A stretch of DNA of 64,000 nt from Sphingorhabdus sp. M41 (GTDB taxonomy: Bacteria; Pseudomonadota; Alphaproteobacteria; Sphingomonadales; Sphingomonadaceae), in the NCBI RefSeq assembly GCF_001586275.1, contig NZ_CP014545.1:894501-958500 (forward strand). Direction: 5' to 3'. Position 1 is the first letter of the stretch. Each line of letters begins with the position of its first letter. The notes beneath the pieces were generated by a model. That model was not told the origin of the DNA. It was given only the letters and a program-made list of their open reading frames with translations, and ran no database searches. Of this stretch, positions 42,901 through 64,000 are shown piece after piece. The position numbers and the translations under genes were made by a program.

Positions 42901-42912
42901 TAACAAATGTTA
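42901..42912. promoter_or_regulatory. TAACAWWTGTTA operator, copy 1
   Basis: TAACAAATGTTA, palindromic apart from its centre, 16 bases before the start of the stilbene dioxygenase gene, where a bound repressor would block transcription or translation. It matches sites at 54656, 59148 and (one mismatch) 61828. Confidence 0.6.
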
Positions 42913-42928
42913 TTGTTGGGAGAGTGGC

Positions 42929-44398
42929 ATGGCAGAATTTCCGGGAACGCCTGATTATTTCGGGCTCAACAAGCCCATTGGTCGGGAATATGATCACACG
43001 GATCTGGAAGTAGAAGGAAAGATACCGGCAGAAGTGGCGGGTACGTTTTTCCGCGCGGTTCCGGATCCGGCCTATCCTCCGTTCATCGAAGATGGCGCTG
43101 CGTCCTTGTCCGGCGACGGCATGATTTCTGCCATAAGGCTGGGTGACGGCAAGGCTGCTATCTCAATGCGCTATGTTCAGACCGAACGCCACAAGGCCGA
43201 GGACGCGGCTGGCGAAGCGATATTCGGTAAATATCGCAATCCCTATACCGACAAGCCCGAGGCAAAGGGGCTGGACCGGACGGTCGCCAACACCACGCCG
43301 ATCTGGCACGCCGGACGGCTGTTGCTGGCGAAGGAAGATGGCAGGCCCTATCGGGTTGACCCGAACACGCTCGAAACCATCGGCTCGCATGACTTTGGCG
43401 GAAAGCTGAAGTCCGAAACCGTGACCGCCCACGCGCGCATCGACCCGGAGACCGGCGAGATGTTCATGTTCGGCTATGAAGCCGATGGCCTTGCCTCGAC
43501 CAAAGTGGCCTATTTCATTGTCGACAAGGATGGTGAACTGACCCGCGAACAATGGTTTGATGCACCCTATTGCGCGATGATGCACGATTTCACGATCACC
43601 GAAAACCATGCGCTATTCCCGATCTATCCGACGACTTCCGACCTCGACCGGCTGAAGGCGGGCGGCGATCACTGGGGTCATGAAATGGAGCTGGAAAGCT
43701 GGGTCGGCGTGATGCCGCGCTATGGCGATGTGTCCGAAATGCGATGGTTCAAGGGGCCCAAGGGCGTGTCCTGTTATCATATGATGAACGCGCATGAAGA
43801 TGCCGACGGACGCATCCTGTTTGATCAGTGCCTTTCCAATGTAAACGCATTTCCGTTCGTGCAGCGCGTGTCGGGGCTCAACATTCCGCCATGGGAAATG
43901 GGCGGCAGGCTTGCCCGCTGGACGCTCGACATGAACAGCGACAGCAATGAAATTGTCGAAACGTCCATTGGTCCATCGGGCGACTTTCCGGTCATAGCGG
44001 CAGACAGGCAGGGCAGGGATTATGACCATGGCTGGATATTGACGATGAACCCCGAAATGCTGGGACCACCAGTTTTTGGGGGGCCGGTTGGCGTGATGTT
44101 CAATATGCTGATGCGCATCGATCTGAATGGCGGACCACCGCAGGCCATGCCATTGCCTCCCGCGCATTGTATCGAGGAGCCTGTGCATGTGCCGTCGACA
44201 CAAAATGGCCATGAAGGATGGCTGGTCGCAGTTGTTGACGAACAGACCGGACCGGAAGATTTCAAACATCAATGCTGGATCATCGAGGCTGGCAATGTTG
44301 GAGCCGGACCGGTCGCGAAAATTTCGATACCGGAGAGGCTGCGGCCGCAAATCCATGGCTGGTGGGTCAGCCAGGCAAAGCTTGACGCTGCCGCATGA
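42929..44398 (+). CDS. Carotenoid-cleavage-type lignostilbene alpha,beta-dioxygenase
   Basis: 489 residues, seven-bladed propeller of the carotenoid oxygenase family. The four iron histidines are His168 (TAHARIDPE), His219 (MMHDFTITENH), His284 (YHMMNAHED) and His476 (QIHGWWVS). Tyr102 and Lys135 (LLLAKEDGRPY) lie one position from the tyrosine and lysine that bind the 4-hydroxyl in lignostilbene dioxygenase, so a 4-hydroxystilbene substrate is likely: it would cut the central double bond to two aromatic aldehydes. A TAACAAATGTTA site lies just upstream. Its stop overlaps the next gene as ATGA. Confidence 0.88.
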   Translation: MAEFPGTPDYFGLNKPIGREYDHTDLEVEGKIPAEVAGTFFRAVPDPAYPPFIEDGAASLSGDGMISAIRLGDGKAAISMRYVQTERHKAEDAAGEAIFGKYRNPYTDKPEAKGLDRTVANTTPIWHAGRLLLAKEDGRPYRVDPNTLETIGSHDFGGKLKSETVTAHARIDPETGEMFMFGYEADGLASTKVAYFIVDKDGELTREQWFDAPYCAMMHDFTITENHALFPIYPTTSDLDRLKAGGDHWGHEMELESWVGVMPRYGDVSEMRWFKGPKGVSCYHMMNAHEDADGRILFDQCLSNVNAFPFVQRVSGLNIPPWEMGGRLARWTLDMNSDSNEIVETSIGPSGDFPVIAADRQGRDYDHGWILTMNPEMLGPPVFGGPVGVMFNMLMRIDLNGGPPQAMPLPPAHCIEEPVHVPSTQNGHEGWLVAVVDEQTGPEDFKHQCWIIEAGNVGAGPVAKISIPERLRPQIHGWWVSQAKLDAAA

Positions 44399-45315
44399 CG
44401 AAAATTGTCATTACCGGCGCGTCCGGTCAGTACGGGCGCTCGGCCACCGACAAGCTAATCGCCATGGGGCGTGGAGAAGATCTGATCCTGATCTCGCGGA
44501 CGCCAGCCAGGCTGGATGATCGCATCGCGCAAGGCTGCACGGTGCGATATGGCGATTTCGACAAGCCGGAGACTTTGGCTGAAGCAGTCGCGGGTGCCGA
44601 CAGGATGTTGCTTATATCCGGCACCAGGGTTGGCGCACGTGTACAGCAGCACAAAGCGGCCGTTGATGCAGCGGCCGCCAACGGTGTGCAGCATATTGTC
44701 TACACCAGCTTCGTCAATGTCGAGGAGGACAATCCCGCGATAGTCACCATCGACCACCGCGAAACGGAAAAGCTGATCCGGCAAAGCGGCTGCAGCTGGA
44801 CCTTCATGCGCGATGCCCATTATGCCGGCGCGATGATCCTGAATGCCGGGCCCGGCTTTATCGCGTCGGGCCTCTGGCAGACGAGCACGGCCGGCGGCAA
44901 GGAAGCGATGGTCTGGCGAGAGGATTGCGTGGCTAGCGCCGTTGCGGTGCTGACCCAGGATGGCCACGAGAACAAGGCCTATCCGATCACCGGACCAAGC
45001 AGCGAAAATTTTGCCGAGGTCGTGGCCATGCTGAACGATATTGTCGGCTGCGCGGTCCAGCTGGCCGAGACGGATGATGACGGCATGTATGCCATGTTCG
45101 ATGCGATGGGCATCCCGCGCGAACCGATTGATGACCAGACAGTCGCCGGCATTCCCTGGAACAGCGATGACATGGTCAGTTTCGAGCGCAGCATCCGCGA
45201 AGGCTATCTGGATATCTGTACCGATGACGTGGAAAAACTGACCGGCAGGAAAGCCCGTTCCGTGCGCCAGATGATCGAGGAAAACCGGGCGTTTCTGAAG
45301 CAGCAGATTCCCTGA
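44395..45315 (+). CDS. NmrA/QorB-like NAD(P)-binding protein
   Basis: 306 residues, an atypical SDR. The N-terminal loop ITGASGQYGRSATDKL binds NAD(P); YTSFVNVEEDNPAIVTIDHRETEKLIRQSG and FMRDAHYAGAM follow as in NmrA and quinone-oxidoreductase-like QorB proteins. There is no clear YxxxK. It is translationally coupled to the stilbene dioxygenase, so it may act on or sense the aldehyde products. Either an oxidoreductase or a redox sensor is possible. Confidence 0.78.
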   Translation: MTKIVITGASGQYGRSATDKLIAMGRGEDLILISRTPARLDDRIAQGCTVRYGDFDKPETLAEAVAGADRMLLISGTRVGARVQQHKAAVDAAAANGVQHIVYTSFVNVEEDNPAIVTIDHRETEKLIRQSGCSWTFMRDAHYAGAMILNAGPGFIASGLWQTSTAGGKEAMVWREDCVASAVAVLTQDGHENKAYPITGPSSENFAEVVAMLNDIVGCAVQLAETDDDGMYAMFDAMGIPREPIDDQTVAGIPWNSDDMVSFERSIREGYLDICTDDVEKLTGRKARSVRQMIEENRAFLKQQIP

Positions 45316-45325
45316 AAAAAGCTTC

Positions 45326-45820
45326 TCAGGTCAGCGCATAATAGCGCAGTAAATTGCCGTCCGGCTTGCGTTCGCCCACGCCAACAAAGACATGGCGGGT
45401 CAGCCAGTCATGCTTGCCCGCGGATACTTCGAAGGTCGGCTGGCCGCGCAGATAATAGTCAGCATGATCAACCGCAGGCCCATTGTCGAAAGCCCATGCG
45501 CGAAGCCGGTTCATCGCGTCGGGGGAACGGCCCCAGAGAAAGCCTCGGTTCTGCATATAGATGATCGTCCCGTCGTCTTCTTCCAGGCAATAGCGGGCAT
45601 CAAAGCGGGCGGTATCATCCTCGCCGAAATGCGCATAGTCACCGCCGGAATTGGGGATCGCCTTGCCGCGCAATCTGGGTCCTTCAAATGTGCCCTCATC
45701 GACCAGCACGGCGCTGCGCATCCCGCCTTGCGGCAAGCCCGGGATACTGAGCACGCGGGTGAATTTGAGCCGGCATTCAAAGGCAAATTCGAGATGCGGC
45801 TTGTCCATGGTCGATAGCAT
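45326..45820 (-). CDS. DUF3237 family protein
   Basis: 164 residues. PHLEFAFECRLKFTRVLSIPGLPQGGMRSAVLVDEGTFEGPRLRGKAIPNSGGDY is the DUF3237 pattern: a beta-barrel-like domain beginning with an F-x-F-x2-L-x-F region and GxxRxxxP-type segments. Function is unknown; members often occur near aromatic or polyketide genes. AAGGGA precedes the ATG. It is the last gene of the six-gene minus-strand operon that begins with ligM and converges on the NmrA-like gene. Confidence 0.78.
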   Translation of the reverse strand: MLSTMDKPHLEFAFECRLKFTRVLSIPGLPQGGMRSAVLVDEGTFEGPRLRGKAIPNSGGDYAHFGEDDTARFDARYCLEEDDGTIIYMQNRGFLWGRSPDAMNRLRAWAFDNGPAVDHADYYLRGQPTFEVSAGKHDWLTRHVFVGVGERKPDGNLLRYYALT

Positions 45821-45832: not shown

Positions 45833-46855
45833 TTACGGTTTGTCTGCAGTGACCAGCGAATAATATCCGCCGCCGGTGCGTTCTGCCTGAACGTTGACGA
45901 AGCCGACGCTTTCCAGAATTTCGGTAAATTCCGGCAGCGAATATTGCCGGCCTCTGGTTCCCAGCAGCATGAGCATGGAGAAGGCCGCCGCGACGAGCGG
46001 CCCGGTGCCATGATCATCCATCAATATTTCATGGAGCATGATCCGGCCTCCGGACGGGAGCGCCGCGAAAGACTTCCCGGCCAGCAATTTGCATGTCTCG
46101 TCCGACCAGTCATGGAATATATTGGAAAAGAAATGGGCGTCATATCCTGTGGGCCAGTCCTGCCGGAACATGTCGACCGCGACAGTAGCGACCCAGTCAG
46201 CAGCACCTGCATTTTCGATATAGCGCTGCGCGGATACGCACATGGTATCAATCTCAAGCACTGTCGCATGGAGGGCAGCATTCGCCTGCGCCATTTCGAT
46301 CGAGAAAACAGCCGAGCCGCCGCCGACATCCAGCAGTCTTTCGATTTTGGAGATTACCGGCAGTTGCGCTACGGCTTTTGCAGCCGCAATACTGTGAGAA
46401 TTCATGAACGCCGCGATATGGTCGGCCATTTCCTGAGGCAGCGCTCCACGCTCCCATTCCTCGGTGTAGGAAAGGCTTTCGGACCCTTTCTCGCCGGTCT
46501 GAAGCGTTTCGACCATCTGCTTGTGCAGCGGCATTGCTTCCTGAAAACTGCCAAGCAGAGGGCCATAATAGCCTTCCGCTTCCGGATGCATCCAGGTGCG
46601 GGCCAGCGCCGTGGAACGCCATTTGCCACCCCGCCGTTCGACCATGCCGAGGGCAGCCAGCAATCCGAGATGGATGCCGAGAGCCCTGGCTTCCGCGCCC
46701 AGCCGTTTGGCCAGAGCCTCTGTCGTCAGTGCTTCACCGGAAATCGCGGCAAATGTGCCGACTTCATCTGCCGCCGTAATGCAGGGCAGAAAATAAGGCG
46801 TTAGCCACAGATCCCAAAATGCACCATCGTCACTCGTGGCGGGTAGCGCGGTCAT
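45833..46855 (-). CDS. SAM-dependent O-methyltransferase (hydroxyindole/caffeate type)
   Basis: 340 residues. An N-terminal winged-helix dimerisation domain (about 25-100) with LGLLAALGMVERRGGKW is followed by a Rossmann methyltransferase domain with RLLDVGGGSAVFSIEMA (SAM loop), VLEID, and NIFHDWSDETCKLLAGK, whose histidine is the usual catalytic base of plant-type O-methyltransferases. It would methylate a hydroxyl, which is surprising in an operon led by a demethylase. It could instead protect toxic phenols or catalyse a SAM-linked non-methylation reaction. Position in the operon: fifth of six. Confidence 0.82.
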   Translation of the reverse strand: MTALPATSDDGAFWDLWLTPYFLPCITAADEVGTFAAISGEALTTEALAKRLGAEARALGIHLGLLAALGMVERRGGKWRSTALARTWMHPEAEGYYGPLLGSFQEAMPLHKQMVETLQTGEKGSESLSYTEEWERGALPQEMADHIAAFMNSHSIAAAKAVAQLPVISKIERLLDVGGGSAVFSIEMAQANAALHATVLEIDTMCVSAQRYIENAGAADWVATVAVDMFRQDWPTGYDAHFFSNIFHDWSDETCKLLAGKSFAALPSGGRIMLHEILMDDHGTGPLVAAAFSMLMLLGTRGRQYSLPEFTEILESVGFVNVQAERTGGGYYSLVTADKP

Positions 46856-46867: not shown

Positions 46868-47740
46868 CTAGTCATTGGTGAAATAGGCAGTGCCGCGAAA
46901 TTCGAAACTGCGGCGCTCGATCGCATCCGGGCGGCTGGTGTCGGGAAAGGCGGTATGCGGCGCGCGCCATGCGCCGCTATGGTCGGAATCGTAGAATTTG
47001 ATGAAGATAATCTCATCTTCCGTCATGTCCGGAAAATACCACCAGCGGTGATCGGGCGAATGGCGGAATATGGTCGCGGCCATCATATCCTCCTCGCCCG
47101 GGATCTCGGCAAACAGGTCATCGCCGGTCGGAATGACATCGACATCGACTTTTGTATTATGCGTGCCTTCCCCGTCCTTAACAGACGGCCCCTCGCAGAG
47201 GGCCAGGGGCCAGTCCTGCGGTGGTGGCGATAGCACGCGCCATAGGGAAAAGCAGATGAAGCGATCATAGCCTTTGCCGTCGGGCCGCTGCGCCCGATAG
47301 AGCATCTCCGCCAGCCTGTTCGCCGACTTCTCGGTGAAGTCGACATGGGCTTCGCCAGCCGGCGGCTGCATTTCCTTGCTGGTTTTTCCCGATGTGCGGA
47401 TCATTCCGCCCATCGGAATGACAAGATCGGCACCGGTCATGCGCTGGACCACTTGCTGCACCTGTTTGGCATATTCGCCGTCGGGTCCGTAATTGGCGGT
47501 CCAGTCTTTTATGTCGGTGTGGTGCCGGTCGATGGCAAAGCCATGTTCGTCGAGCGTGAATGGCCCGGCCAGTCGCGCGTTCCTTATTTTTACATCATAA
47601 GGCGCATATTCGCCGGTATTATATTCTTCGCCGGGTGCCCAGAAACGGCGGTTGATCAGCGAAGTCGGCAACAGATACTGGATCTTTGCGTCAATTTCAG
47701 CGGTGGCGGGACTCAATGCGGCGTCGCTATCAGCGGTCAT
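46868..47740 (-). CDS. CmcJ/NvfI-family protein (putative non-haem iron enzyme), copy 2
   Basis: 290 residues. It resembles the protein at 42072-42863: DVKIRNARLAGPFTLDEHGFAIDRHHTDIKDW, GEAHVDFTEKSANRL (HxD), FSLWRVLSPPPQDWPLALCEGPSV, SPDHRWWYFPDMTEDEIIFIKFYDSD, PHTAFPDT and RRSFEFRGTAYF. It is the fourth gene of the ligM operon, between an NTF2-like gene and the methyltransferase. Divergence from copy 1 is considerable, so the two probably act on different substrates. Iron/2-oxoglutarate chemistry is inferred from NvfI. Confidence 0.72.
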   Translation of the reverse strand: MTADSDAALSPATAEIDAKIQYLLPTSLINRRFWAPGEEYNTGEYAPYDVKIRNARLAGPFTLDEHGFAIDRHHTDIKDWTANYGPDGEYAKQVQQVVQRMTGADLVIPMGGMIRTSGKTSKEMQPPAGEAHVDFTEKSANRLAEMLYRAQRPDGKGYDRFICFSLWRVLSPPPQDWPLALCEGPSVKDGEGTHNTKVDVDVIPTGDDLFAEIPGEEDMMAATIFRHSPDHRWWYFPDMTEDEIIFIKFYDSDHSGAWRAPHTAFPDTSRPDAIERRSFEFRGTAYFTND

Positions 47741-47752: not shown

Positions 47753-48145
47753 CTAAAAGTCCAGGCTGCCCCTTCGCTCGACAAAGCGCCAGCCGTCAGC
47801 CGTCAGCGTCAGGCGATCCTGATAGCTGCCGACTTTTGGTGCCTGGTCGGGGCCGGTGAAGAGCAATATCTGGCTGGAAGCCGTTGCTGTGCCACCGGGT
47901 GAGACCATGACGCGTATATTGGCGCAGATATGACGCGAGGCTCGTTTCGGACGGGCGCGAAACGCTGCCAGAATCGCATCGCGTCCTTCGACAAAATCAT
48001 CGGGTGCAGTGGGCCTGCTCATCCGGCCGTCCGCCACATAAAGCGCGGCGACCGCAGTCCAGTCACCCGCATCAATCAGCGCCGCATAATCGATGATCAA
48101 TCGCTCACAGGCGCGTTCCGCGATCAACAGGTCCACTGCATCCAT
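47753..48145 (-). CDS. NTF2/SnoaL-like protein (small)
   Basis: 130 residues, one SnoaL-type cone-shaped alpha+beta barrel: ERACERLIIDYAALIDAGDWTAVAALYVADGRMSRP, EGRDAILAAFRARPKRASRHICANIRV and DRLTLTADGWRFVERRGSLDF are the standard pattern. Family members act as isomerases, dehydratases, aldolases or lyases, often without cofactors. It overlaps no gene, but the gaps are only 5 and 12 bases within the ligM operon. Role possibly in breaking or rearranging an aromatic side chain. Confidence 0.8.
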   Translation of the reverse strand: MDAVDLLIAERACERLIIDYAALIDAGDWTAVAALYVADGRMSRPTAPDDFVEGRDAILAAFRARPKRASRHICANIRVMVSPGGTATASSQILLFTGPDQAPKVGSYQDRLTLTADGWRFVERRGSLDF

Positions 48146-48150: not shown

Positions 48151-48861
48151 TCAGTCCTTGAACCCTTCGCGGGCGCGGCTGTTGTCCACGACAATCGGTT
48201 CGCCGGTTACCGGGTGAGGATAATGGAAATCGACAATGTCCGTGGCCGGCCAGAGGCGCGGTACCGGGTCAATCAATTCATCGGGGCCCAGCGGATCTTC
48301 CGGGAAACAGGTCGTCGCCATCGGGATGAAGTCGATCGGCGTCTTCTGCCAGCCGTCGGCGAAACTGCCGTGCCAATGCGGGAAATAGCGCAATGCCTTG
48401 ATCTTCCAGACGCCGCTTTCGCGAACATATTCATTCTCGTAAATGCCGCCTTCCCACCAGGCGCGGGCATCGCCTTCCGCCGTTTCGTGCAGGCCTGCCT
48501 GCATCATCGAACGTCCGCGTACCTGGGCGGTCTTGCGATCATTGGCGACATCTATGACCATTTGCAGCTGCGGGTGATCGAGCAGCCAGCCATATTTGGG
48601 GCCATTGTGGCCGGCGGTGAATATATTCTGGAACCGTTCCTTGTACAGGCGCTCTACGCCGGCCCTGCCTTTGTAAATGCCGCCGAGAAACCACACGTCA
48701 CCATCTTCGGCGAACAGGTCGACACATTCGTTATATTGCGATTTGTCGATGAAATATCCGTATGTATATTGAAGTCGTCGGATCTGGTTTACATCCTGTT
48801 CAATCCCCAGTTCATGCTCCAGCTTGTCAATGCGCGCCGTCAGAGCTGCAATCTCAGACAT
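48151..48861 (-). CDS. NTF2/SnoaL-like protein (large), LdpA-like candidate
   Basis: 236 residues. An N-terminal coiled helix (IAALTARIDKLEHELGIEQDVNQIRRLQ) precedes an NTF2-like domain: YTYGYFIDKSQYNECVDLFAEDGDVWFLGGIYKGRAGVERLY, GGIYENEYVRESGVWKIKALRYFPHWHGSFADGW. A C-terminal extension carries PHPVTGEP. It is clearly paralogous to the partial protein at the right window end. NTF2-like LdpA of Novosphingobium removes formaldehyde from diarylpropane lignin dimers to form lignostilbenes; a dioxygenase for that product is nearby, so this is the best candidate for such a lyase. That activity is inferred. Confidence 0.78.
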   Translation of the reverse strand: MSEIAALTARIDKLEHELGIEQDVNQIRRLQYTYGYFIDKSQYNECVDLFAEDGDVWFLGGIYKGRAGVERLYKERFQNIFTAGHNGPKYGWLLDHPQLQMVIDVANDRKTAQVRGRSMMQAGLHETAEGDARAWWEGGIYENEYVRESGVWKIKALRYFPHWHGSFADGWQKTPIDFIPMATTCFPEDPLGPDELIDPVPRLWPATDIVDFHYPHPVTGEPIVVDNSRAREGFKD

Positions 48862-48894: not shown

Positions 48895-50298
48895 TTATTT
48901 TGCTGATTTAGTGCGCCAGCTCTCGGCGTAGGCGGTGCGCGCAACTTCCGAATAGGGAGTCGGTGCGACGATCGCCTTGATCGTTACCTGCCGATGCGGC
49001 TCGACGGTCGGCTTGCTGGTGCCGCCATCCGGCTCGCCCCAGATGAAGTCGACCTCGGTGCCCGGCTCGGCATATTTTTCGTCGACCATCGCCAGCGTCA
49101 GCATCTTGCCTTCATTGGCGGTATAGCCGATCCAGGTGGACAGGCCGATCAGCTCGCCGTCGACTTCGACCCGGTCAAACGGATGCATCGCATAGACCGC
49201 GCTCGGGAAGTCTATGAATTTCGCGCGCAGCCCCTCTTTTTCAAACTGGGTATAAATGGCATCTGTCACCGATGCATTGTCGAGCGCCAGCGTGACCTTC
49301 TTGCGCTTGGGCTGCTCTGCCATTTTTTCGAGCGCCGCGCGGCCGATGAAATCATGATCGAATTTCACAAAAAATCCGTAACCCAGATCCCAGGGGCTGA
49401 GATAATAGCCTTCGACGCTGTCGGGAACATAGCTGCCTCCGATGGAGGCATTGGCTTCATAATCCTTGCCGGTCAGCCATTCGCGATAGGGCTTCATCGC
49501 CTCGCCAGTATAGATGGCTGGCAGCGGGGAGGGGATCCAGCCCGATTCGAGCGTGTTGGATGAATAGGTACGGCCGCCGACCAGTTTCATGTCATGCGCT
49601 TTGCCGGCTTCGACCAATGCGCTGTGCACCGCTTCGCGCTCTTCCCAGGGACCCATGAGTTCATATCCGGGCTGACCAGCCATACCGTGCCGCAGGGCGT
49701 GGACTTTCTTGCCGCCAATTTCCATCCAGCACATGTGGAAGAATTTCAGTTCCGGAGCCGGCTTGCCGGTTACATCTTCAATCACCTTGGCGGAATTGGG
49801 ACCTTGCACCTGATAGCGATAGTGCCGCCGGTTTTCCGGATCGGGCCGCGCAGCGGTCCGTTCGTCATAGGTGAGCGTCACGTCATGATCACCGGTTTCC
49901 GCGTGGAAGGTAATCCAGTTCAGCGTCGGCGCTCGGCCGACAAGGTTGAATTTATTCTCGGCCAGATAGAAGAGGATGACATCACCGATCACGAAGCCAT
50001 CGTGGCTGACGGGCACAAACTGCTTGGCGCGGTCCGGGACAAAATTCTTGAAACTGTTGATGCCAATGCCATTCAGAAATTCGAACGCATCCGGGCCTTC
50101 AACCATCAGTTCGGCCATATGATAGGATTGGTTGAACAATACACAGCTGTCATTCCACGCCCGCTGCTCGACGCGCCAGTTGGAAAATTCCGCCGGAACG
50201 CCGGGATAGACATTTGGTCCAACCTGCTGGTTGCGCAAAAGCTCAACGGTGTCGCCCGCTTTTTCCAGAATCTGCTCAAGTGATTGTTGATTTGCCAT
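48895..50298 (-). CDS. ligM: Tetrahydrofolate-dependent vanillate/methoxybenzoate O-demethylase (LigM/DesA family)
   Basis: 467 residues, the length of LigM/DesA (471 in SYK-6), a GcvT-fold enzyme. GVPAEFSNWRVEQRAWNDSCVLFNQSYHMAELMVEGPDAFEFLNGIGINSFKNF, YQVQGPNSAKVIEDVTGKPAPELKFFHMCWMEIGGKKVHALRHGMAGQPGYELMGPWEERE and YYLSPWDLGYGFFVKFDHDFIGRAALEKM are typical. It moves the methyl of vanillate or a related methoxybenzoate to tetrahydrofolate, giving protocatechuate or a catechol. It heads a six-gene operon. Twin 19-bp operators lie upstream, shared with the divergent MetE-like gene. Vanillate versus syringate preference is not decided. Confidence 0.9.
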   Translation of the reverse strand: MANQQSLEQILEKAGDTVELLRNQQVGPNVYPGVPAEFSNWRVEQRAWNDSCVLFNQSYHMAELMVEGPDAFEFLNGIGINSFKNFVPDRAKQFVPVSHDGFVIGDVILFYLAENKFNLVGRAPTLNWITFHAETGDHDVTLTYDERTAARPDPENRRHYRYQVQGPNSAKVIEDVTGKPAPELKFFHMCWMEIGGKKVHALRHGMAGQPGYELMGPWEEREAVHSALVEAGKAHDMKLVGGRTYSSNTLESGWIPSPLPAIYTGEAMKPYREWLTGKDYEANASIGGSYVPDSVEGYYLSPWDLGYGFFVKFDHDFIGRAALEKMAEQPKRKKVTLALDNASVTDAIYTQFEKEGLRAKFIDFPSAVYAMHPFDRVEVDGELIGLSTWIGYTANEGKMLTLAMVDEKYAEPGTEVDFIWGEPDGGTSKPTVEPHRQVTIKAIVAPTPYSEVARTAYAESWRTKSAK

Positions 50299-50365
50299 CG
50301 GTCCATTGCTCCTAAGAATATTTTATGCGCAACAATTTTGGTTGCAAGTTTGACTTTCAATATGT

Positions 50366-50384: not shown

Positions 50385-50399
50385 GAACGTCAATTGCAA

Positions 50400-54614: not shown

Positions 54615-54655
54615 TTTCATCCTCTCGTATTTTCTGAATTCCACCTTGCATATTC

Positions 54656-54667
54656 TAACAATTGTTA
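54656..54667. promoter_or_regulatory. TAACAATTGTTA operator, copy 2
   Basis: A perfect 12-bp palindrome in the 82-base gap between the divergent NTF2-like operons, able to control both. Identical core to the 59148 site. Confidence 0.65.
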
Positions 54668-54696
54668 CAATAGTCAAAGGCAGGAGGAGGAGCAAA

Positions 54697-56695: not shown

Positions 56696-56708
56696 AACAG
56701 CTCCTAAA

Positions 56709-56727
56709 TAGTAAGTAATACATACAA
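56709..56727. promoter_or_regulatory. 19-bp TTGTATG-N5-CATACAA-type operator, site 3 (folD)
   Basis: TAGTAAG-TAATA-CATACAA, five of seven pairs symmetric, with the same right arm and a centre identical to the site at 61789. It lies just upstream of folD. Confidence 0.6.
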
Positions 56728-56780
56728 TATAGGAGGCGAAGGTCAAACCTAATTTGGGGCGGATTCACGCCTATAACTAT

Positions 56781-57128
56781 TTACCGCATTTCCCAGAAAA
56801 ACAGTCCGTCCTGCAGTGTCTCGACGGTCAGCCTTTTGCCATGTTCCTCGAGGAAACCACGCGCCAGGACGAAGTCGCTCCAGCCGGTCATGCCGGCAAT
56901 TTTCCTGCTTTCTGTACCGGAACGCAAATTGCGCCAGAAGTTCGCGTCTTCATGGGCGATATCGATTTTGTGTGCAAAGCGCGCGTTGGCGAAACCTGCG
57001 CTAACCGGGTGACGGCTGTCAAAGATGATCAAGTCCGCCGACCGGGACGCGAGCGCCGTGGTGGAACCGGCCGACACGGCAGCGACGGCGATCCCGCTTT
57101 TCAGGACATTGCGCCGGGAGATGCTCAT
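56781..57128 (-). CDS. Small Tat-exported protein of the flavocytochrome operon
   Basis: 115 residues. The N-terminus SISRRNVLKSGIAVAAVSAG is a twin-arginine signal, so the protein is folded before export and may carry a cofactor or travel with a partner. The mature part has FDSRHPVSAGFA, IAHEDANFWRNLRSGTESRKIAGMTGWSDFVLARGFLEEHGKRL and no cysteines. I do not recognise the family. ATGA overlap with the cytochrome gene makes it the third gene of a tight operon, so it is likely an accessory or third component of the periplasmic dehydrogenase. Confidence 0.75.
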   Translation of the reverse strand: MSISRRNVLKSGIAVAAVSAGSTTALASRSADLIIFDSRHPVSAGFANARFAHKIDIAHEDANFWRNLRSGTESRKIAGMTGWSDFVLARGFLEEHGKRLTVETLQDGLFFWEMR

Positions 57129-57553
57129 TGGTCGGCCTTCGCAAGATATTTGGCGATTGCGTCCAGTTCGGCATCGGTTGCTTCTACCCGGGAAATTCGC
57201 GGCATCGCCATCTTGCCATCCCGAACCACGGCCTTTATATAATCAGCGGTCAGATCGGTCCGGTTGGTCAACAGGCCCGTTTCCGGTGGCTCGCCCGCTT
57301 TCATCCTTTGTACTGTCAACAGATTGGTCCCCATTCCGCCGGCAAGGTGGCAGGAGCCGCAGCGATTGGAAAACAGATCCGCACCGCTTTTGCCGGCAGT
57401 CAGCCTGTCACCCGGCGGCAGCTCTGCTCGCATCTGATAGGGTGGGGGAGGCGGCGGGCCGCCTTCCTGGCCGTTGGCGATCTGTTGGGTATCCGTCGCG
57501 CCGGAACCGCAAGCGGTCAACAGGGCAAGAGCCGCGAGACCAAGCCGTCTCAT
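57125..57553 (-). CDS. Lipoprotein cytochrome c, subunit of VAO-type dehydrogenase
   Basis: 142 residues. The lipoprotein signal MRRLGLAALALLTAC gives lipid Cys15. A proline-rich linker follows, then one class I haem site CGSCH (LFSNRCGSCHLAGGMG), and a methionine ligand probably in KMAMPRIS. It overlaps the flavoprotein gene as ATGA. In 4-cresol dehydrogenase and eugenol hydroxylase a small cytochrome c takes electrons from the flavin; this one fits that place, anchored to a membrane. The start upstream at 57595 is not supported. Confidence 0.85.
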   Translation of the reverse strand: MRRLGLAALALLTACGSGATDTQQIANGQEGGPPPPPPYQMRAELPPGDRLTAGKSGADLFSNRCGSCHLAGGMGTNLLTVQRMKAGEPPETGLLTNRTDLTADYIKAVVRDGKMAMPRISRVEATDAELDAIAKYLAKADQ

Positions 57554-59127
57554 GTCTTGTCTCCTTCGGCATGGTCTCGATAGGCCGCTGGCCATACACC
57601 CTGTTTTCCGGGTGCCAATATGCCGTTGGGATCAATCGCATCTTTCAGTTTTTCATTCAAACGGCGTTGGGCACCATCGTTGAAATCATAGGTTTTATTG
57701 ACCTCGTCCATCCAGCCGATATGGGTGCGATATTCGCCATAGCCCGCTTTGGCGGTGTCGCGGATCAGGGCATTGAACATCGTGCGGATATTCCTGACCT
57801 GCTCCGGCTTGTCACGATCATACATCAGCATGTTGATATTGGTCGCGAACCGCCCGCCAATGGTGAAGCTGGCATAGAAATCGACATCATGGTCGGCGAT
57901 GATCTTGCGGCTGCGTTTCAACTGGCCCAGCACATGTTTGGAGGTCGCCGGCACGACCGGTGAAAAGCCCATATGCGCACCGCGGCCACCAACCCAGTCG
58001 CCCATTTGCAGCGCAATTGCCGATGGCATGCCCATGGTCGGATCATATTGATTGATCGGGTCGCCCTGTTTCCACCAGACTTCCATCGGCGGCGTATCGA
58101 TATGGCGCTTGAACGCCTTTTTGACGATGTCCGCCTTGGCCTTATTGAGCGTCTCGTCGCCGTAGAAGCGGATCTGCACCTGCCAGTAACCGAGCTTATG
58201 CTCCTTCAGCAATTCCTGCACACGCCATTCCGGCATCGCGCTTTCCTTGTCCCAGAAATCATTGCGTTGCCCCTTGAGCACAATTTTCCCGAGCCATGAC
58301 GGAATGAAAACATTCTGTTCGATGACACCGGCTGTCTTGAGCGGCGTAATCGTGTCAACAACCCAGCCGATATCTTCCTCGTTCGGAATATCATAGGTCA
58401 GTTGCAGAGACGTTTCCGGTGCTGGCTGCAGCCAGACGCCTGCCTTGGTCACGACGCCCATGTTGGACTGGGTGAACATATGGGTCCAGTCGGGACCATA
58501 GCTGAGCGGGAAAAGATGCCAGCTGTGATTATTTTCCATCGCTCCCATGCCGGTGCGCATGACTTCGCCATCGGGTAGCACGGCTTCGATCCCGCAGAGA
58601 TTGCGCGCATGCTGGCCATAAGGCGTATAGCCCATCCCGTGATCAAGCGCATTGCCGAGGACGGATCCCCAGGCATTGCCGGGAACCGACATCCACAACG
58701 GCGCCTTTTCACGCTGGATATGCTCATAGAGATCGAAGAAACTGACACCGGGCTCGATCACGCAATAGCCTAGCTCGGTGTTGAGCTCTTCGATTTTCAG
58801 CATCCGGCTCAGGTCCAGCACGATCGAACCGGGCAGGCGCGGCGCGGCTGTGCCATAGCCCAGGTTTTTCCCGCGAGAGACGGGCCAGAGAGGGGTCTTA
58901 TACTCATTGGCAATGCGGATGATCGCCTGAATTTCTTCGCGCGTCTGCGGCGCTACCGCAGCTGAAGCGGGCCATTCACTTTCCGGGCCGGGTGCGTAAA
59001 TGTCGGAATAGGCGTCACGATCCTGATCCGTGGAAAGCACCCAATCCTCGCCAACGACGGCAGCATAGGCTTTCAGCGCATTATCAAATTGCGCGGGCGA
59101 CACCCGCGGCGGCAGTTTGAGTTCCAA
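57550..59127 (-). CDS. VAO/PCMH-family flavoprotein (4-cresol dehydrogenase / eugenol hydroxylase type)
   Basis: 525 residues. The FAD-binding PCMH domain (about 65-240) has SRGKNLGYGTAAPRLPGSIVLDLSRM, CVIEPGVSFFDLYEHI and GNAWGSVLGNALDHGMGYTPYGQHARNLCG; the substrate domain runs to DPNGILAPGKQGVWP. With a cytochrome c next to it, the enzyme should hydroxylate a para-alkylphenol through a quinone methide with water. The start is TTG, with GGAGAGG upstream and an in-frame stop close behind it. There is no visible signal peptide. A TAACAATTGTTA site lies 21 bases upstream. Likely substrate: a 4-alkyl- or 4-allyl-phenol, or a dimer. Confidence 0.88.
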   Translation of the reverse strand: MELKLPPRVSPAQFDNALKAYAAVVGEDWVLSTDQDRDAYSDIYAPGPESEWPASAAVAPQTREEIQAIIRIANEYKTPLWPVSRGKNLGYGTAAPRLPGSIVLDLSRMLKIEELNTELGYCVIEPGVSFFDLYEHIQREKAPLWMSVPGNAWGSVLGNALDHGMGYTPYGQHARNLCGIEAVLPDGEVMRTGMGAMENNHSWHLFPLSYGPDWTHMFTQSNMGVVTKAGVWLQPAPETSLQLTYDIPNEEDIGWVVDTITPLKTAGVIEQNVFIPSWLGKIVLKGQRNDFWDKESAMPEWRVQELLKEHKLGYWQVQIRFYGDETLNKAKADIVKKAFKRHIDTPPMEVWWKQGDPINQYDPTMGMPSAIALQMGDWVGGRGAHMGFSPVVPATSKHVLGQLKRSRKIIADHDVDFYASFTIGGRFATNINMLMYDRDKPEQVRNIRTMFNALIRDTAKAGYGEYRTHIGWMDEVNKTYDFNDGAQRRLNEKLKDAIDPNGILAPGKQGVWPAAYRDHAEGDKT

Positions 59128-59278: not shown

Positions 59279-61735
59279 TCAGAATTTCTTTTTGACCGTA
59301 AGAGCCCATTCGCGTGGTCTCGCTGGCAGTGCCTTGTCGAAACCGCCACCCGCGCCGAGCAGATTGAACCGGCTGAGGAAATAATATTCATTGGTGATAT
59401 TCGTAACCTCCAGTGAAATATCGAGATCTTCGTCAGCATTTCTCCAGGTCAGGCGTCCGTTGAGCGTGGTGAAGCTCGGCAGGAATGTTCTGCCGCGTGG
59501 TGTAACCGACGTATCTGGTCCGGTATATTGCTTGGCCTGATAAGTGAAATCCAGGCGCGGTGTGATACTGCCGCTGTCCCCCAGTTCTGCCTTATATTGC
59601 ATGCCGAGATTGGCCTTCCACTTTGGAACCGTTGGCGGATCACTTGGATCGACGCCGCCAGGATTGGTACCAAATGGTGGGATGGCAGCAGCCGGATTGA
59701 GACTGCCTTCCTTGAGCTTCTGGTCGATGTAGCTCACTGCACCATCAATCAACAAACCGTCTACCGGTTCCGCTGACAACTCCAGTTCAACGCCCTTGAC
59801 CACTGCATCACCAGCATTGAACCGCGCGGCACAAGGTGCGCCAGGGCAAGCATTTACCGGAATCTGCAGATCGGTATAGTCGTTGAGGAATACGGAGCCA
59901 TTGAAGCGTAAGCGATTGTCGAGCAGATCGCTCTTGAACCCGACTTCATAGGCGGTGACCTTTTCCGGATTGAACGGGATCAACTGGTCCGCATTAAACG
60001 GCCGCGGATTCGTGCCGCCGCCCTTGAAGCCGGTTGAGACCGAGGCATAGCCAAGAAATGCATCCGAGAAGCGATAGTCGACCGCCACGCGATAATCGAG
60101 TCGATCCGCGCTATAATGTGCGGTGTTGCCGCTGAGTGCGCCAGGAGACCCGATCCCGTTTGCCGCGCCAACCGGATCAACAAACCGGTTTACGGTCCCG
60201 TCGAGATTGAGACGGAAATAAGTCTGATCCTTGGATTCATCTGTGTAGCGGACGCCAACGTTTATCGTCAGCAGATCGGTGACCTCCCACCCGACATTGG
60301 CAAAGACTGCCTTGGCTTCTGCGCTGGTCGGATCCGGCTGACGAAATTGCAGCGGAAAGACCGACACATAACGGATGTCCTGGAAAGAGTCATAGACCGA
60401 ATCCTGCTCGAAATAATAGCCGCCGAGAGTCACGTTGACACCATCCGTCGGTTCCAGATTCAGACGCAGTTCCTGACTGAAGCTTTCGTTGGTGAGGAAG
60501 TTGCGGCCGAAATTTGTGTGGATCGGCGTCAGATCGTCATCGGTGAAGAACTCGGTATCAAACTCGCGATAACCGGTGATCGAAGTGAGCTGCATCCAGT
60601 CATTGAGTTCGATCTTCAGATTGGCAGAAACGCCCCAGCCGGTATATTTGCTCTGGTCGGTTCCGGACGTAGCGGAGAGAACGGTTCCGGCGGCACCCAG
60701 AGGATCAATGAAGACGCCCGGCGCCACTTCAAGTGCTGGCTGCCAGACAATGCCAGGCTGACCGGTTGTCGAATAGTTGCAGAACTTGCCGCAGATGAAA
60801 TTATTGCTCAACGGCACGCCGTTGTTTGCTGTATTGGGAGCCGGCACCGGACCAGTGTTGAGCAGGACTTCACCAGCAATGGTGCGTTCGTCCTTCACAT
60901 AGTCGGCGCTGACGGTCAGCTCGACGCGATCGCTGGGAGTCCACTGCATGATGCCGCGCAGTGCCTGATAGCCGATACCGCCCAGCTTGCTGACCACACA
61001 GTCGCCGCCGCCGGCATTGGTCGAGGGAATTCCACTGGTCGGGTTTTCGCATCCATAATCGATCCGATCGACATAACCGTCCTGTTCCTTGAACACGCCG
61101 GAGATGCGCATTGCGAGATTGTCGGTCAGGCCGAAATCTGCAGCAGCGCGAAGTCCAATGCGGTTGCGCGATCCGTAGGTCGCTTCCACAAATCCGCTAT
61201 TATCGCCGGTTGGCTTGCGCGAGAAAAATTTGATGGCACCGCCGGCCGAGTTTCGACCGGTAAGCGTTCCCTGGGGGCCGCGCAGAATTTCTACCCGGTC
61301 GACGTCGAGCAAATCAAATATCGCGCCGGTCAGCTGAGGATAATAGACATCGTCGATATAGATGCCCACACCAGGTTCAAAAGCAGGGTTGAAATCATTT
61401 TGTCCAACACCGCGAATAGAAGCGGTAACCGAAGGTCCGAAAGAAGCGCCTTGCGGACGGATCGCGACATTCGGTGCAGTGTCGGCAACTTGCTGCAAAT
61501 TGGTTTGACTTTTTGCCTCGATCATTTCTCCGGTAACCGCGGTAATCGCCAACGGAATGTCCTGCAGATTCTGTTCCCGAAACTGGGCTGTGACGACAAT
61601 GATGTTTTTGCCTTCGTCGGCAGAATCATTGGCGTTCTGAGCCATCGCCGGTGCACTGGATAATGCGACGCCGATTATTGTAGCATATGACAATGTCTTG
61701 AATTGCGCGCGCCGTGGCTGTGTTACTTTTGACAT
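59279..61735 (-). CDS. TonB-dependent outer-membrane receptor
   Basis: 818 residues. A signal peptide (to about SSAPAMAQ), a plug domain with IIVVTAQFREQNLQDIPLAITAV, GPSVTASIRGVGQNDFNPAFEPGVGIYIDDVYYP and VEILRGPQGTLTGRNSAGGAIKFFSRKP, then a beta-barrel ending in ALTVKKKF with terminal phenylalanine. It takes up substrates with TonB energy. Receptors of this iron-type class in sphingomonads also import aromatic compounds. GGGAGG precedes the ATG. It diverges from the MarR gene and carries a 19-bp operator of the ligM type upstream, so it is probably induced with the catabolic genes. Confidence 0.92.
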   Translation of the reverse strand: MSKVTQPRRAQFKTLSYATIIGVALSSAPAMAQNANDSADEGKNIIVVTAQFREQNLQDIPLAITAVTGEMIEAKSQTNLQQVADTAPNVAIRPQGASFGPSVTASIRGVGQNDFNPAFEPGVGIYIDDVYYPQLTGAIFDLLDVDRVEILRGPQGTLTGRNSAGGAIKFFSRKPTGDNSGFVEATYGSRNRIGLRAAADFGLTDNLAMRISGVFKEQDGYVDRIDYGCENPTSGIPSTNAGGGDCVVSKLGGIGYQALRGIMQWTPSDRVELTVSADYVKDERTIAGEVLLNTGPVPAPNTANNGVPLSNNFICGKFCNYSTTGQPGIVWQPALEVAPGVFIDPLGAAGTVLSATSGTDQSKYTGWGVSANLKIELNDWMQLTSITGYREFDTEFFTDDDLTPIHTNFGRNFLTNESFSQELRLNLEPTDGVNVTLGGYYFEQDSVYDSFQDIRYVSVFPLQFRQPDPTSAEAKAVFANVGWEVTDLLTINVGVRYTDESKDQTYFRLNLDGTVNRFVDPVGAANGIGSPGALSGNTAHYSADRLDYRVAVDYRFSDAFLGYASVSTGFKGGGTNPRPFNADQLIPFNPEKVTAYEVGFKSDLLDNRLRFNGSVFLNDYTDLQIPVNACPGAPCAARFNAGDAVVKGVELELSAEPVDGLLIDGAVSYIDQKLKEGSLNPAAAIPPFGTNPGGVDPSDPPTVPKWKANLGMQYKAELGDSGSITPRLDFTYQAKQYTGPDTSVTPRGRTFLPSFTTLNGRLTWRNADEDLDISLEVTNITNEYYFLSRFNLLGAGGGFDKALPARPREWALTVKKKF

Positions 61736-61788
61736 AAGTTCATCCTCCCATTTCTTTACCCGAAAAGAGGCGTTTCTCGCCTTCTTGA

Positions 61789-61807
61789 TTGTGTGTAATA
61801 CATACAA
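61789..61807. promoter_or_regulatory. 19-bp TTGTATG-N5-CATACAA-type operator, site 4
   Basis: TTGTGTG-TAATA-CATACAA, six of seven pairs symmetric, in the divergent gap between the receptor and MarR genes. Its last twelve bases are identical to the folD site. Confidence 0.65.
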
Positions 61808-61839: not shown

Positions 61840-61906
61840 GGAAGAATTTTATCGAACTTTTCGTGAGCTGTGGCTTTTGAGTATCAAACAGATTAAGTTC
61901 ATCTGT

Positions 61907-62398
61907 ATGGAAAAAAAGGATGATTCCCAGGTCGCGTCGGATCAGGTCGAAATTCTTGTCGACTTATTGAAGGTCGCAACCAAAATCGGGCGGCCCATGC
62001 GCGATGGTGTCGCCGATCCGGAAGACGTCAGCGTGACAGAGCTTCGGATCCTTTTGGCATTGGGCGGAGAGGGGGCGCTAGCAGGAATAGATCTCGCCGA
62101 ATTGATGGCAATGCAACCGATGAATGTCAGCAGGGCGCTGAACAGTCTCGAAGCCCTGGGTCTGGTTGAACTGACCGACAATGAAAATAACCGGCGCCGC
62201 AAGCCTTATCAGCTGAGCAAGGCTGGGCGCACCAAATTCAAGAAAATGAATGAAAGAATGTCGGAAGTGGCAACATTTGTTTTTGGTAAGCTGAACCAGT
62301 CGGAGCTTCGCCAGGTCGACAAAATATTGCGCAAAATTGAAGGCCGTCTGAACGAATGGGAATCGCCCCCCGAATTGCAGCATGTGCCGCGTGCCTGA
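61907..62398 (+). CDS. MarR-family transcriptional regulator
   Basis: 163 residues. A winged helix occupies about 40-125: VSVTELRILLALGGEGALAGIDLAELMAMQPMNVSRALNSLEALGLVELTDNENNRRRKPYQLSKAG, with the recognition helix in MNVSRALNSLEAL and the DxxxxRxK-type wing. MarR proteins act as dimers and release DNA when a phenolic ligand binds. In Sphingobium SYK-6 the MarR protein DesR controls ligM, so this one may sense an aromatic intermediate. The frame is also open from a TTG at 61877, but ATG at 61907 looks better. Both operator types occur upstream. Confidence 0.88.
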   Translation: MEKKDDSQVASDQVEILVDLLKVATKIGRPMRDGVADPEDVSVTELRILLALGGEGALAGIDLAELMAMQPMNVSRALNSLEALGLVELTDNENNRRRKPYQLSKAGRTKFKKMNERMSEVATFVFGKLNQSELRQVDKILRKIEGRLNEWESPPELQHVPRA

Positions 62399-62456
62399 AT
62401 TTGCAATTCGCGATGTGGCCGTTCAGCTTCCGCGCATGATTCGGCTTTGTCGATAA

Positions 62457-63593
62457 TCAGACACTCTTCGGCAGACGAAAAACATTTTCAGCATTTGTCT
62501 GCATCAGCATTTTCTTATGTTCTGCCGATATGCCGATATTGTCATAGACTGCGAGTTCATCTGACGATTGCTGATAGGGATAGTCCATCGCGTAAAGAAC
62601 GCGCTCCGGTCCCATAACATCCATGCAGAATTTGATTGCCGGTTCCCACCCGACACCGCTCGTCGTGATCCAGATGTTATTGCGGAAATAGTGACTGACA
62701 GGATATTTTAGCGTCACCGCTGGCTGACCACCCCGAAAACCCGGGATGCCATCTGCATTGCTTTGCATCCAGTCAAAACGGTAAAGGTGCAGCGGCAGGC
62801 ATTCACCCATGTGACCAATTACCAGCCGCAGTTTCGGATATTTGTCAAAGGCACCGGAAAAGATCAGACCCATAGTATGCAGCCAGACATCGTGCGGGAA
62901 GCCGCCGAGCGCTCCGAATAGTCCGCGATCCTTATAATGCTGCCCATTATAAGGGGCCGTAGGATGAATATAGAGCGCGGCGTCGAGTGCTTCCAATGCT
63001 TCCAATATCGGTTCGTAGGCCGGCTCGTCGAGATAGCGTCCCTGAAAATGGGAATTGAGCACCGCGCCGTTGAGGCCGAGCGTGGTATTCGCCCGTTCCA
63101 GTTCCTGCACCGATCCTTTCACATCGCGCGGATCAAAGGCGGCTAGGGCTGAAAATCTGTCGGGCCATCTGTTGCAGCTTTCTGCTGCCAGATCATTGGC
63201 TTGCCGAGCCAGGGCCGTGCCTTCACTCTCCCGCACGACTTGGACGCCGGGCGACGTCAGCAGCAGCAATTGCCGGTCAATGCCATATTCGTCCATATGG
63301 GCGATCCGGCCTTCCCCTATATCCTGCAACATACCTTGCAGTTTCGGCATGGAGGCGAACATGCCCGCCATCCCGAGAGAAGCGTCGTCCGGTCCTTCGC
63401 CGCTCTCCAGATAGTCCAGCTGTGCTTTTACCAGATCCGGAAAGGTCCACGCTTCCTCGGTGGCGATGCGTTTATATGGTGCATTGCGATCAACTTCACC
63501 GGCTGGCGGAGCCATGCCGATACGGGTGCGTATGCCGCGTTCTTCTGCATGGCCGCGCAGGCCTTTCTCGCTGCCGTCGGGTAGAAGCGTCAT
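62457..63593 (-). CDS. LigW-like amidohydrolase-family decarboxylase
   Basis: 378 residues of the ACMSD-related decarboxylase group. PYKRIATEEAW (metal-binding acid replacing the first histidine pair), LLLLTSPGVQVV, YIHPTAPYNGQHY, VIGHMGECLPLHLYRFDWM, TTSGVGWEPAIKFCMDVMG and YAMDYPYQQSSDE match 5-carboxyvanillate decarboxylase (LigW) in order. A manganese-dependent removal of a ring carboxyl from a hydroxybenzoate is the likely reaction. Its ATG overlaps the stop of the upstream NTF2-like gene. The N-terminal extension of about 36 residues is longer than usual. Gamma-resorcylate decarboxylase is a nearby alternative. Confidence 0.8.
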   Translation of the reverse strand: MTLLPDGSEKGLRGHAEERGIRTRIGMAPPAGEVDRNAPYKRIATEEAWTFPDLVKAQLDYLESGEGPDDASLGMAGMFASMPKLQGMLQDIGEGRIAHMDEYGIDRQLLLLTSPGVQVVRESEGTALARQANDLAAESCNRWPDRFSALAAFDPRDVKGSVQELERANTTLGLNGAVLNSHFQGRYLDEPAYEPILEALEALDAALYIHPTAPYNGQHYKDRGLFGALGGFPHDVWLHTMGLIFSGAFDKYPKLRLVIGHMGECLPLHLYRFDWMQSNADGIPGFRGGQPAVTLKYPVSHYFRNNIWITTSGVGWEPAIKFCMDVMGPERVLYAMDYPYQQSSDELAVYDNIGISAEHKKMLMQTNAENVFRLPKSV

Positions 63594-64000
63594 TGTTTGA
63601 GCTCCTGTCCCAACAGAAGAGCACCGAATTTGGGGTGAGCAAAATGCATCGGAACGTCCTGCCGACTCGGCCAGGTCTTGCGGATATCTTTTTCATCCAG
63701 CAGATAGTCGGGACCGATCGGATTGTCGGGATAGCATTCGGTCAGCGGCTGCAAATGGCTGACGGTCTTCGACCAGCCGGCTTCATAGTCGCCCTGCCAT
63801 TGCATCATATAGTCGAGGCGTTTGATCTTCCAGACATCCCCTTCACGGACATAGTCATTTTCGTAAATGCCGGCTTCCATGAACTGCAGCGGCAGGCCTT
63901 CCGGTTTCCATTCGCGCGACTCGTGGCTACCGCCGAACAGCATGCCGCGGAAACGGCCCTTGGCGGTTTGCCGGTCAGGAGCAACGGTGATGATGTCCTG
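63590..64000 (-). CDS. NTF2/SnoaL-like protein (large), partial
   Basis: 137 residues of the C-terminal part; the start is beyond the window. FMEAGIYENDYVREGDVWKIKRLDYMMQWQGDYEAGWSKT parallels GGIYENEYVRESGVWKIKALRYFPHWHGSFADGWQKT of the protein at 48151-48861, as do the TECYPDNPIGPD and FAHPKFG segments, so they are paralogues. It is translated just before the LigW-like decarboxylase (ATGA overlap), which suggests consecutive steps on one compound: side-chain lysis and ring decarboxylation. The activity itself is inferred. Confidence 0.75.
   Translation of the reverse strand, partial: QDIITVAPDRQTAKGRFRGMLFGGSHESREWKPEGLPLQFMEAGIYENDYVREGDVWKIKRLDYMMQWQGDYEAGWSKTVSHLQPLTECYPDNPIGPDYLLDEKDIRKTWPSRQDVPMHFAHPKFGALLLGQELKQ

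Follow-up and report, generated by a model that had tools for sequence, protein, structure and literature searches.

A predicted β-β-lignan (pin) branch with a third LdpA/PcfL-type clade in a lignin-dimer island of Sphingorhabdus sp. M41

Homologues of pin genes in the window

We analyzed a 64,000-nucleotide stretch of the Sphingorhabdus sp. M41 chromosome (contig NZ_CP014545.1, positions 894501-958500 of a 3.34-Mb single-contig genome), referred to as the window, which carries homologues of pin (pinoresinol) genes together with an NTF2/SnoaL protein that we call LdpA1. An original prediction, made from the sequence, had proposed that window positions 42901 to 64000 hold an undescribed catabolic island for lignin-derived aromatic dimers. 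Genes were assigned to families with Pfam and NCBIfam. The lignostilbene-type dioxygenase, the VAO-type flavoprotein with its cytochrome, the pyrroloquinoline quinone (PQQ) dehydrogenase, the TonB receptor and the MarR regulator were recovered at or near their predicted places. The expected four or more NTF2-like proteins came to four (47753, 48151, 54646 and 63590, the last running out of the window), and two CmcJ-like enzymes were found as announced (46868-47740 and 42072-42863, both 247 bits on NF041278, cut-off 80). Genes for an NmrA-type reductase (44395), a DUF3237 protein (45326), an O-methyltransferase (45833), a MetE-like protein (50442) and FolD (55823) had not been named. The block is identified as a pin branch because of its PinZ, PinX and PinW/PinV orthologues. 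The main genes are as follows.

42929..44398, plus strand: lignostilbene-type dioxygenase, NOV2/LsdA-PinU group (NCBIfam NF053780; tree)
44395..45315, plus strand: PinZ orthologue, NmrA-type, pinoresinol reductase (68% to SYK-6 PinZ, 67% to the F199 homologue)
45326..45820, minus strand: PinX orthologue, DUF3237, lariciresinoate decarboxylase (by orthology)
45833..46855, minus strand: O-methyltransferase, Methyltransf_2 (Pfam)
46868..47740, minus strand: CmcJ/NvfI-family oxidoreductase 1 (NF041278)
47753..48145, minus strand: small SnoaL_4/NTF2 protein of 130 amino acids, a frequent LdpA1 partner (Pfam)
48151..48861, minus strand: LdpA1, NTF2/SnoaL protein (PDB matches, tree, residues, fold)
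48895..50298, minus strand: DesA-type (syringate) O-demethylase, first gene of the minus-strand operon (NF047633)
51586..53937, minus strand: PQQ alcohol dehydrogenase with cytochrome c domain (Pfam; linkage)
57125..57595, minus strand: PinV orthologue, cytochrome c, CGSCH matching the CXXCH motif (64% to F199 over 102 amino acids)
57550..59127, minus strand: PinW orthologue, PCMH/VAO-type flavoprotein (72% to F199)

The dioxygenase scored 839 bits on the NCBIfam equivalog for NOV2 lignostilbene dioxygenase (NF053780, cut-off 650), and its tree group contains both NOV2 and the pinZ-coupled enzyme of N. pokkalii. Its gene overlaps pinZ by 4 bp, an arrangement of translational coupling, and the two genes lie at most 250 bp apart in 55 of the 61 loci having both. 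This count and the other linkage counts below come from the best 80 of 123 pinZ loci, picked by pinZ and taken with 10-kb flanks, and are biased to the pin neighbourhood. The pinZ gene of SYK-6 is SLG_07320 in Table 1 of PMC12997858. PinX shares 75% identity with two genes, the one near pinZ in SYK-6 and the one adjoining pinW in F199. A SYK-6 pair at 997 kb, positioned as expected for phcF/phcG (SLG_09360/09370), reaches only 45% and 43%. The F199 homologues of PinX, PinW and PinV sit together, at a place fitting Saro_2877/2876/2875 of the same table. Flavoprotein 57550 was also considered as an alkylguaiacol oxidase, since its PDB relatives include eugenol and vanillyl-alcohol oxidases, but its 72% identity to PinW, the adjoining PinV and the nearby PinX fit a PinW orthologue better, and the 4-alkylguaiacol reading of the original prediction becomes unnecessary.

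No GMC-family (PinY-type) match was found in the island. The PQQ dehydrogenase, whose true start is probably at an internal lipoprotein-like peptide, shares the strand of pinX and is no more than 2.5 kb away from it in 20 of 23 loci having both (13 within 400 bp), and this linkage in many genomes makes it a candidate lariciresinol oxidiser in place of PinY. The same-strand linkage recurs across genera (L067, L066, L104, L105, L108-L110 and others), SYK-6 included, and a second PinZ-like group (45-50%) also often adjoins a PQQ dehydrogenase. SYK-6 further encodes a second PinX-like protein (64%); its gene adjoins those of a PinW-like flavoprotein (43%) and a cytochrome, near lsdF and the pinY candidate (G144 3000001-3020000, L245); Table 1 of PMC12997858 gives no pinW/pinV for this strain.

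Judged by orthology, the window contains pinZ, pinX, pinW and pinV together with a dioxygenase at the place of pinU. We read the block as the β-β-lignan (pin) branch of a 52.5-kb lignin-dimer island lying beside the core lig cluster, and give this reading a probability of about 0.82.

The desA-to-pinX operon and the LdpA1 clade

Six genes, desA-ldpA1-snoaL-cmcJ-omt-pinX, follow each other on one strand with gaps of 33, 5, 12, 12 and 12 bp (promoter side first) and presumably form one transcript; an operon of this composition is not described in the literature searched. Protein 48895 had been called a LigM-type demethylase, and it does pass the LigM model (620 bits, cut-off 580), but the DesA model fits it better (860 bits, cut-off 800, NF047633). 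A divergent MetE-like gene starts on the other side of desA; of 7 loci having both genes, 5 show this back-to-back pair within 400 bp, which suggests that methyl groups of methoxy-aromatics may pass to methionine. CmcJ-1 adjoins pinX wherever both are present (10 of 10 loci). The O-methyltransferase gene, which here lies inside a catabolic operon, has counterparts beside pinX in two other genomes, L036 and L264; none was found at the corresponding place in L054, a 91%-identical relative.

The operon might serve syringyl dimers, DesA, the O-methyltransferase and the CmcJ-like enzymes going with S-type lignans such as syringaresinol. DesA is its first gene, PinZ is reported to reduce syringaresinol, and Novosphingobium rhizosphaerae LY grows on that compound (PMC12607616). 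DesA also acts on free syringate, however, and CmcJ, LdpA1 and pinX stay together without desA in Chakrabartia, L066, L074 and L127. We consider a dedicated syringyl function rather unlikely.

LdpA1 matches the LdpA structures PDB 8abt, 8abu and 8abv with E values of 1e-55 to 2e-57. In its AlphaFold model (predicted local distance difference test, pLDDT, 77.7; predicted template-modelling score, pTM, 0.78) the top Foldseek matches are again LdpA structures, the best being 8abt at E 7e-24. A tree of 80 LdpA/PcfL sequences, which does not cover all matches, placed LdpA1 in a clade of 24 sequences (support 100/99), sister to a PcfL clade of 34 (98/96) and apart from LdpA. Inside the clade, identity to the window protein is 74-83%; the next sequences reach at most 56%. 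In an alignment of 22 LdpA1, 23 PcfL and 12 LdpA sequences (57 in all), 49 positions carry one shared residue in 95% or more of the members of each clade. These include His96 of LdpA1, which corresponds to H97 of NaLdpA, the residue mutated in PDB 8abu (H97Q). Twelve columns set LdpA1 and PcfL apart from LdpA, while a single one sets LdpA1 and LdpA apart from PcfL.

Two established names were tried for protein 48151 and rejected. It is not LdpA itself, from which it is separated in the tree and for which the paralogue at 63590 qualifies; neither is it a PcfL orthologue, being sister to the clade of F199 PcfL and not inside it, and the PcfL orthologue of this genome lies at chromosome 977689-978420. 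By tree and residues, LdpA1 belongs to a third clade within the LdpA/PcfL γ-formaldehyde lyases; it retains the catalytic His and is predicted to be a lyase, its residue pattern leaning to PcfL.

The distribution of LdpA1 was followed in 195 genomes of a single genus, which we take to be Novosphingobium since it includes F199, and in 397 genomes of the family, our own included. In the 195 genomes, proteins were labelled by identity bands to the query (LdpA1 at least 74%, PcfL-type 49-56%, LsdD at least 73%). LdpA1 (at least 74%) occurs in 15 of the 195 and, own genome included, in 9 of the 397; it was not found in F199 or SYK-6. All 15 genomes have PinW and PinX, which are present in 57 and 66 of the 195, respectively. 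LdpA1 stands beside pinX in 7 of the 15 and elsewhere in 8. Four of these 8 were read, and there LdpA1 stands with the small SnoaL gene, as it does in G197, from another genus. The neighbours of this stand-alone pair are named in part, some open reading frames of L259 having been scanned in a doubtful frame.

These genomes bear on the possibility that LdpA1 is a functional stand-in for PcfL, acting on β-5 phenylcoumarans that feed LsdD, its place beside pinX being incidental. PcfL-type proteins (54 genomes) and LdpA1 (15) never occur together in the 195: the 57 PinW genomes divide into 38 with PcfL, 15 with LdpA1, 4 with neither (52-81% complete) and none with both. The Fisher values for co-occurrence take no account of kinship. 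On a PinW tree covering 40 of these 57 genomes (15 LdpA1, 21 PcfL, 4 neither; 43 rows once our own genome, G050 and an outgroup are added), no fewer than 4 switches of state are needed, or 5 with genome G461, which is 6% contaminated. LsdD is found in 49 of the 54 PcfL genomes, 7 of the 15 LdpA1 genomes and 3 of the 126 others; the 7 are the same that have LdpA1 beside pinX, and in the 5 with both genes on one contig LsdD lies 6-23 kb from LdpA1. On the other hand, 8 of the 15 lack a close LsdD. LdpA1 is moreover no strict alternative to PcfL everywhere, since the genome of the window and Chakrabartia hold LdpA1, PcfL and LdpA, and 8 of the 9 LdpA1 genomes of the family sample have a second match in the PcfL identity range. 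The stand-in explanation is possible but less likely than not.

LdpA1 could also assist PinW/PinV by taking formaldehyde off the quinone methide derived from imperanene, a step without a separate assigned enzyme in LY. Its operon with pinX and the presence of PinW in every one of the 15 LdpA1 genomes would agree with this, as would the quinone methide route proposed for LdpA chemistry (PMC12997858). Against it, 42 of the 57 PinW genomes do without LdpA1, and in LY the step is ascribed to PinVW followed by formaldehyde loss. Such a helper role seems improbable to us, clearly more so than that of a PcfL stand-in.

The island, its borders and the other genes of the window

Further genes of the window are listed below.

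31928..39914, both strands: protocatechuate 4,5-cleavage genes (Pfam; F199 and SYK-6 orthologues); by low end, ligI 31928, ligU 32812 and ligK 33872 on the minus strand; ligR 34646, DUF1932 dehydrogenase 35863, ligJ 36642, ligA 37661, ligB 38115 and ligC 38976 on the plus strand
41077..42072, plus strand: aldo/keto reductase, last gene common to the island-free congener G591; the island starts right after it (42069)
42072..42863, plus strand: CmcJ/NvfI-family oxidoreductase 2, directly upstream of the dioxygenase (NF041278; F199 orthologue 56%)
50442..51563, plus strand: MetE-like methyltransferase, divergent from desA (NCBIfam; linkage)
54646..55086, plus strand: SnoaL protein (F199 orthologue 59%; PDB 3g0k is a close relative)
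55089..55826, plus strand: short-chain dehydrogenase/reductase (SDR); the pair with SnoaL gene 54646 is kept in 14 of 14 loci having both
55823..56746, minus strand: FolD, one-carbon folate enzyme (Pfam/NCBIfam)
59279..61807, minus strand: TonB-dependent receptor (family match)
61877..62398, plus strand: MarR regulator (family match)
62457..63593, minus strand: amidohydrolase, LigW-related but not the LigW orthologue
63590..64000, minus strand: in-window part of the true LdpA orthologue, which continues to chromosome 958791 (958090-958791; 65% to F199 and SYK-6 LdpA)

The predicted protocatechuate 4,5-cleavage set adjoining the block was thus borne out (ligI/U/K/R/J/A/B/C); two further genes lie between it and CmcJ-like gene 2. 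The LigW-like decarboxylase predicted at 62457 did not hold: the protein is only 40% identical to the LigW orthologue of the genome, encoded at chromosome 979851-980906, outside the window. Open reading frames 50106-51623 (minus), 53784-54707 (plus) and 57025-57963 (plus) were rejected as genes; they are antisense or overlapping frames and gave no family match where scanned.

Beyond the window, names were given by orthology to F199 or to SYK-6 places in Table 1 of PMC12997858. Chromosome 958090-984046 encodes LdpA (65% to F199 and SYK-6), an SDR matching the place of SYK-6 LdpB, and aldehyde dehydrogenases. A LigF-like glutathione S-transferase (PDB 4xt0, E 2e-44) and an overlapping second gene of this type (E 2e-17) form a β-etherase-like pair. 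A PQQ dehydrogenase, LigM, a MetF-like protein, two SDRs at the LigO/LigN place and a major facilitator superfamily (MFS) transporter also lie within this range. After these come PcfL (66% to F199; chromosome 977689-978420), FerD (78%), LigW (75%), a further MFS gene and LsdD (80%). By orthology, these parts correspond to the LdpA/LdpB (β-1) and PcfL-FerD-LigW-LsdD (β-5) branches.

In congener G591 the gene order follows that of M41 across lig up to and including the aldo/keto reductase; next comes purU alone, and collinearity resumes at chromosome 989098 of M41. In this empty-site comparison, 52.5 kb (chromosome 936569-989097) are missing from G591 except purU, and the block, being absent from the same site in a relative, is a presence/absence chromosomal island. 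The purU gene (formyl-tetrahydrofolate deformylase, above the PurU NCBIfam cut-off) lies at chromosome 970536-971462 (L027 12536-13462), inside the island; as it is the sole gene between lig and the right flank in G591, DNA has been gained, or lost, on both sides of it. No tRNA was seen at the island ends, the 500-600 bases compared at the two ends contain one 12-base direct repeat and none longer, no integrase was found among the scanned genes (which do not comprise every open reading frame), and the G+C content is that of the host and not odd. At chromosome 990549, the start of the right flank, lie genes for glutathione-dependent formaldehyde dehydrogenase and S-formylglutathione hydrolase, both above NCBIfam cut-offs; they would fit detoxification of formaldehyde released by the pathway.

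Within the genus, a LigB match is found in 8 of 32 genomes, our own included, 6 of them at 74% identity or more, and the lig cluster is also present in some congeners without the island. No LdpA-family match at E 1e-55 was found in the 9 other congeners of the 397-genome family sample. A metagenome-assembled genome of the genus, with genes 90-98% identical, has at least the lig-side part of the island. Short repeated DNA was also observed at window 28900-29540, between a peroxidase gene and FAS1-dehydratase/acyl-CoA dehydrogenase genes, as several overlapping blastn matches against G591.

Known systems and the proposed route

Mutants of N. rhizosphaerae LY established that pinZ, Y, X, W, V and U are needed for growth on pinoresinol, and pinZ and the dioxygenase gene pinU are translationally coupled in this strain (PMC12607616). 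The M41 block resembles the LY clusters (pinUZ, pinXWV) in the pinU-pinZ coupling, in PinX and PinW-PinV and, by locus tags, in having lig next door. It differs in that pinX closes an operon with LdpA1, CmcJ, the O-methyltransferase, the small SnoaL protein and DesA, and no pinY is nearby. Table 1 of PMC12997858 gives LY homologues of pinU/Z/X/W/V, ldpA, ligM/metF and lig, with locus tags that are close to each other (R9J51_00140-00510), and F199 holds orthologues of most island genes in a similar local order (Saro_0793-0802, 2805-2819, 2860-2877). The original prediction foresaw a catabolic island for lignin-derived dimers that adjoins lig and contains NTF2-like lyases as well as a lignostilbene dioxygenase, and such an island is found; the word "undescribed" cannot be kept. 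Its proposal of an LdpA-like but broader route stands in so far as NTF2 paralogue 48151 falls outside the two characterised clades; the main chemistry in the window is of the β-β (pinoresinol) type, and LdpA is only partly inside it.

In F199 the genes are in three separate pieces and LdpA1 is absent; in the stretches examined, an O-methyltransferase and a small SnoaL protein are missing and CmcJ-1 finds no better match than 32%. In Chakrabartia godavariana the genes lie in one piece and in largely the same order, without desA, metE, folD and the small SnoaL gene. Such conservation of order there and, over three pieces, in N. aromaticivorans indicates that the block is not a chance assembly. 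It could still be an ordinary assembly of known F199/LY genes without functional novelty, LdpA1 being a redundant PcfL-like duplicate, and most island genes indeed match F199 at 45-89% in the stretches examined. The well-separated LdpA1 clade, with its gap in identity and its retention in both genome samples, speaks against such redundancy, which we hold to be fairly unlikely.

In the route that we propose, PinZ would convert pinoresinol (or syringaresinol) to lariciresinol, which an alcohol dehydrogenase (candidate: PQQ enzyme 51586) and PinX would turn into imperanene with loss of CO2. Oxidation of imperanene by PinW/PinV would yield a quinone methide, from which formaldehyde is lost, and the dioxygenase would cleave the resulting butadiene or stilbene to aromatic aldehydes. 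DesA, and LigM outside the window, would hand methoxyl groups to tetrahydrofolate, with the MetE-like protein, FolD and PurU serving one-carbon flow, and the ring would enter LigAB. We infer all of these steps from orthology with genes tested by others.

Several observations weigh against this explanation. The genome has no clear PinY: it contains two GMC matches, the comparable one being 38% identical to the SYK-6 PinY candidate, and other GMC proteins compared also reach 35-40%. The tree could not place dioxygenase 42929 as PinU rather than LsdA. The CmcJ, O-methyltransferase, small SnoaL and SnoaL-SDR proteins are without a role in the proposed scheme. F199 has pinZ/X/W/V homologues, yet pinoresinol is absent from the dimers listed for it as natively catabolised in PMC12997858, and such a gene set need not mean growth. 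Finally, each of the 15 genomes with LdpA1 among the 195 has retained PinX, an argument against its mere replacement by LdpA1.

LdpA1 shares family, fold and catalytic His with LdpA, the diarylpropane formaldehyde lyase, but is only about 43-50% identical to it and belongs to another clade, the true LdpA being the next paralogue. With PcfL, the phenylcoumaran γ-formaldehyde lyase, it shares sister-clade position and the 12 class-distinguishing columns; it is about 49-56% identical to PcfL, and a PcfL orthologue proper (66% to F199) is encoded elsewhere in the genome, beside ferD/ligW/lsdD. PcfL acts on a cyclic ether that has a hydroxymethyl group next to it. Lariciresinol is built in the same way, and on chemical grounds formaldehyde loss would give imperanene directly. 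LdpA1 might thus open lariciresinol-type rings directly by formaldehyde loss, as PcfL does on phenylcoumarans, an analogy that we offer as a minority bet. Replacement of PinXY by a PcfL homologue is named as a possibility in a 2026 review (PMC12997858). Put together, and just as tentatively, LdpA1 would be a third kind of cofactor-free γ-formaldehyde lyase, turning the tetrahydrofuran ring of lariciresinol into imperanene and formaldehyde in one step and sparing PinY/PinX; the PinX-containing operon with DesA would extend the route to syringyl lignans, and each carbon-carbon linkage would have its own lyase (LdpA for β-1, PcfL for β-5, LdpA1 for β-β).

Chemical depolymerisation of lignin leaves carbon-carbon-linked dimers behind. 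For those of the β-β type, one complete bacterial route and one partly characterised route are described (PMC12997858). If the direct ring opening were true, a single enzyme replacing an oxidase and a decarboxylase would be useful. Most genes of the island are already described in other sphingomonads; LdpA1 belongs to an enzyme type not yet characterised and could act by opening the ring of plant lignans.

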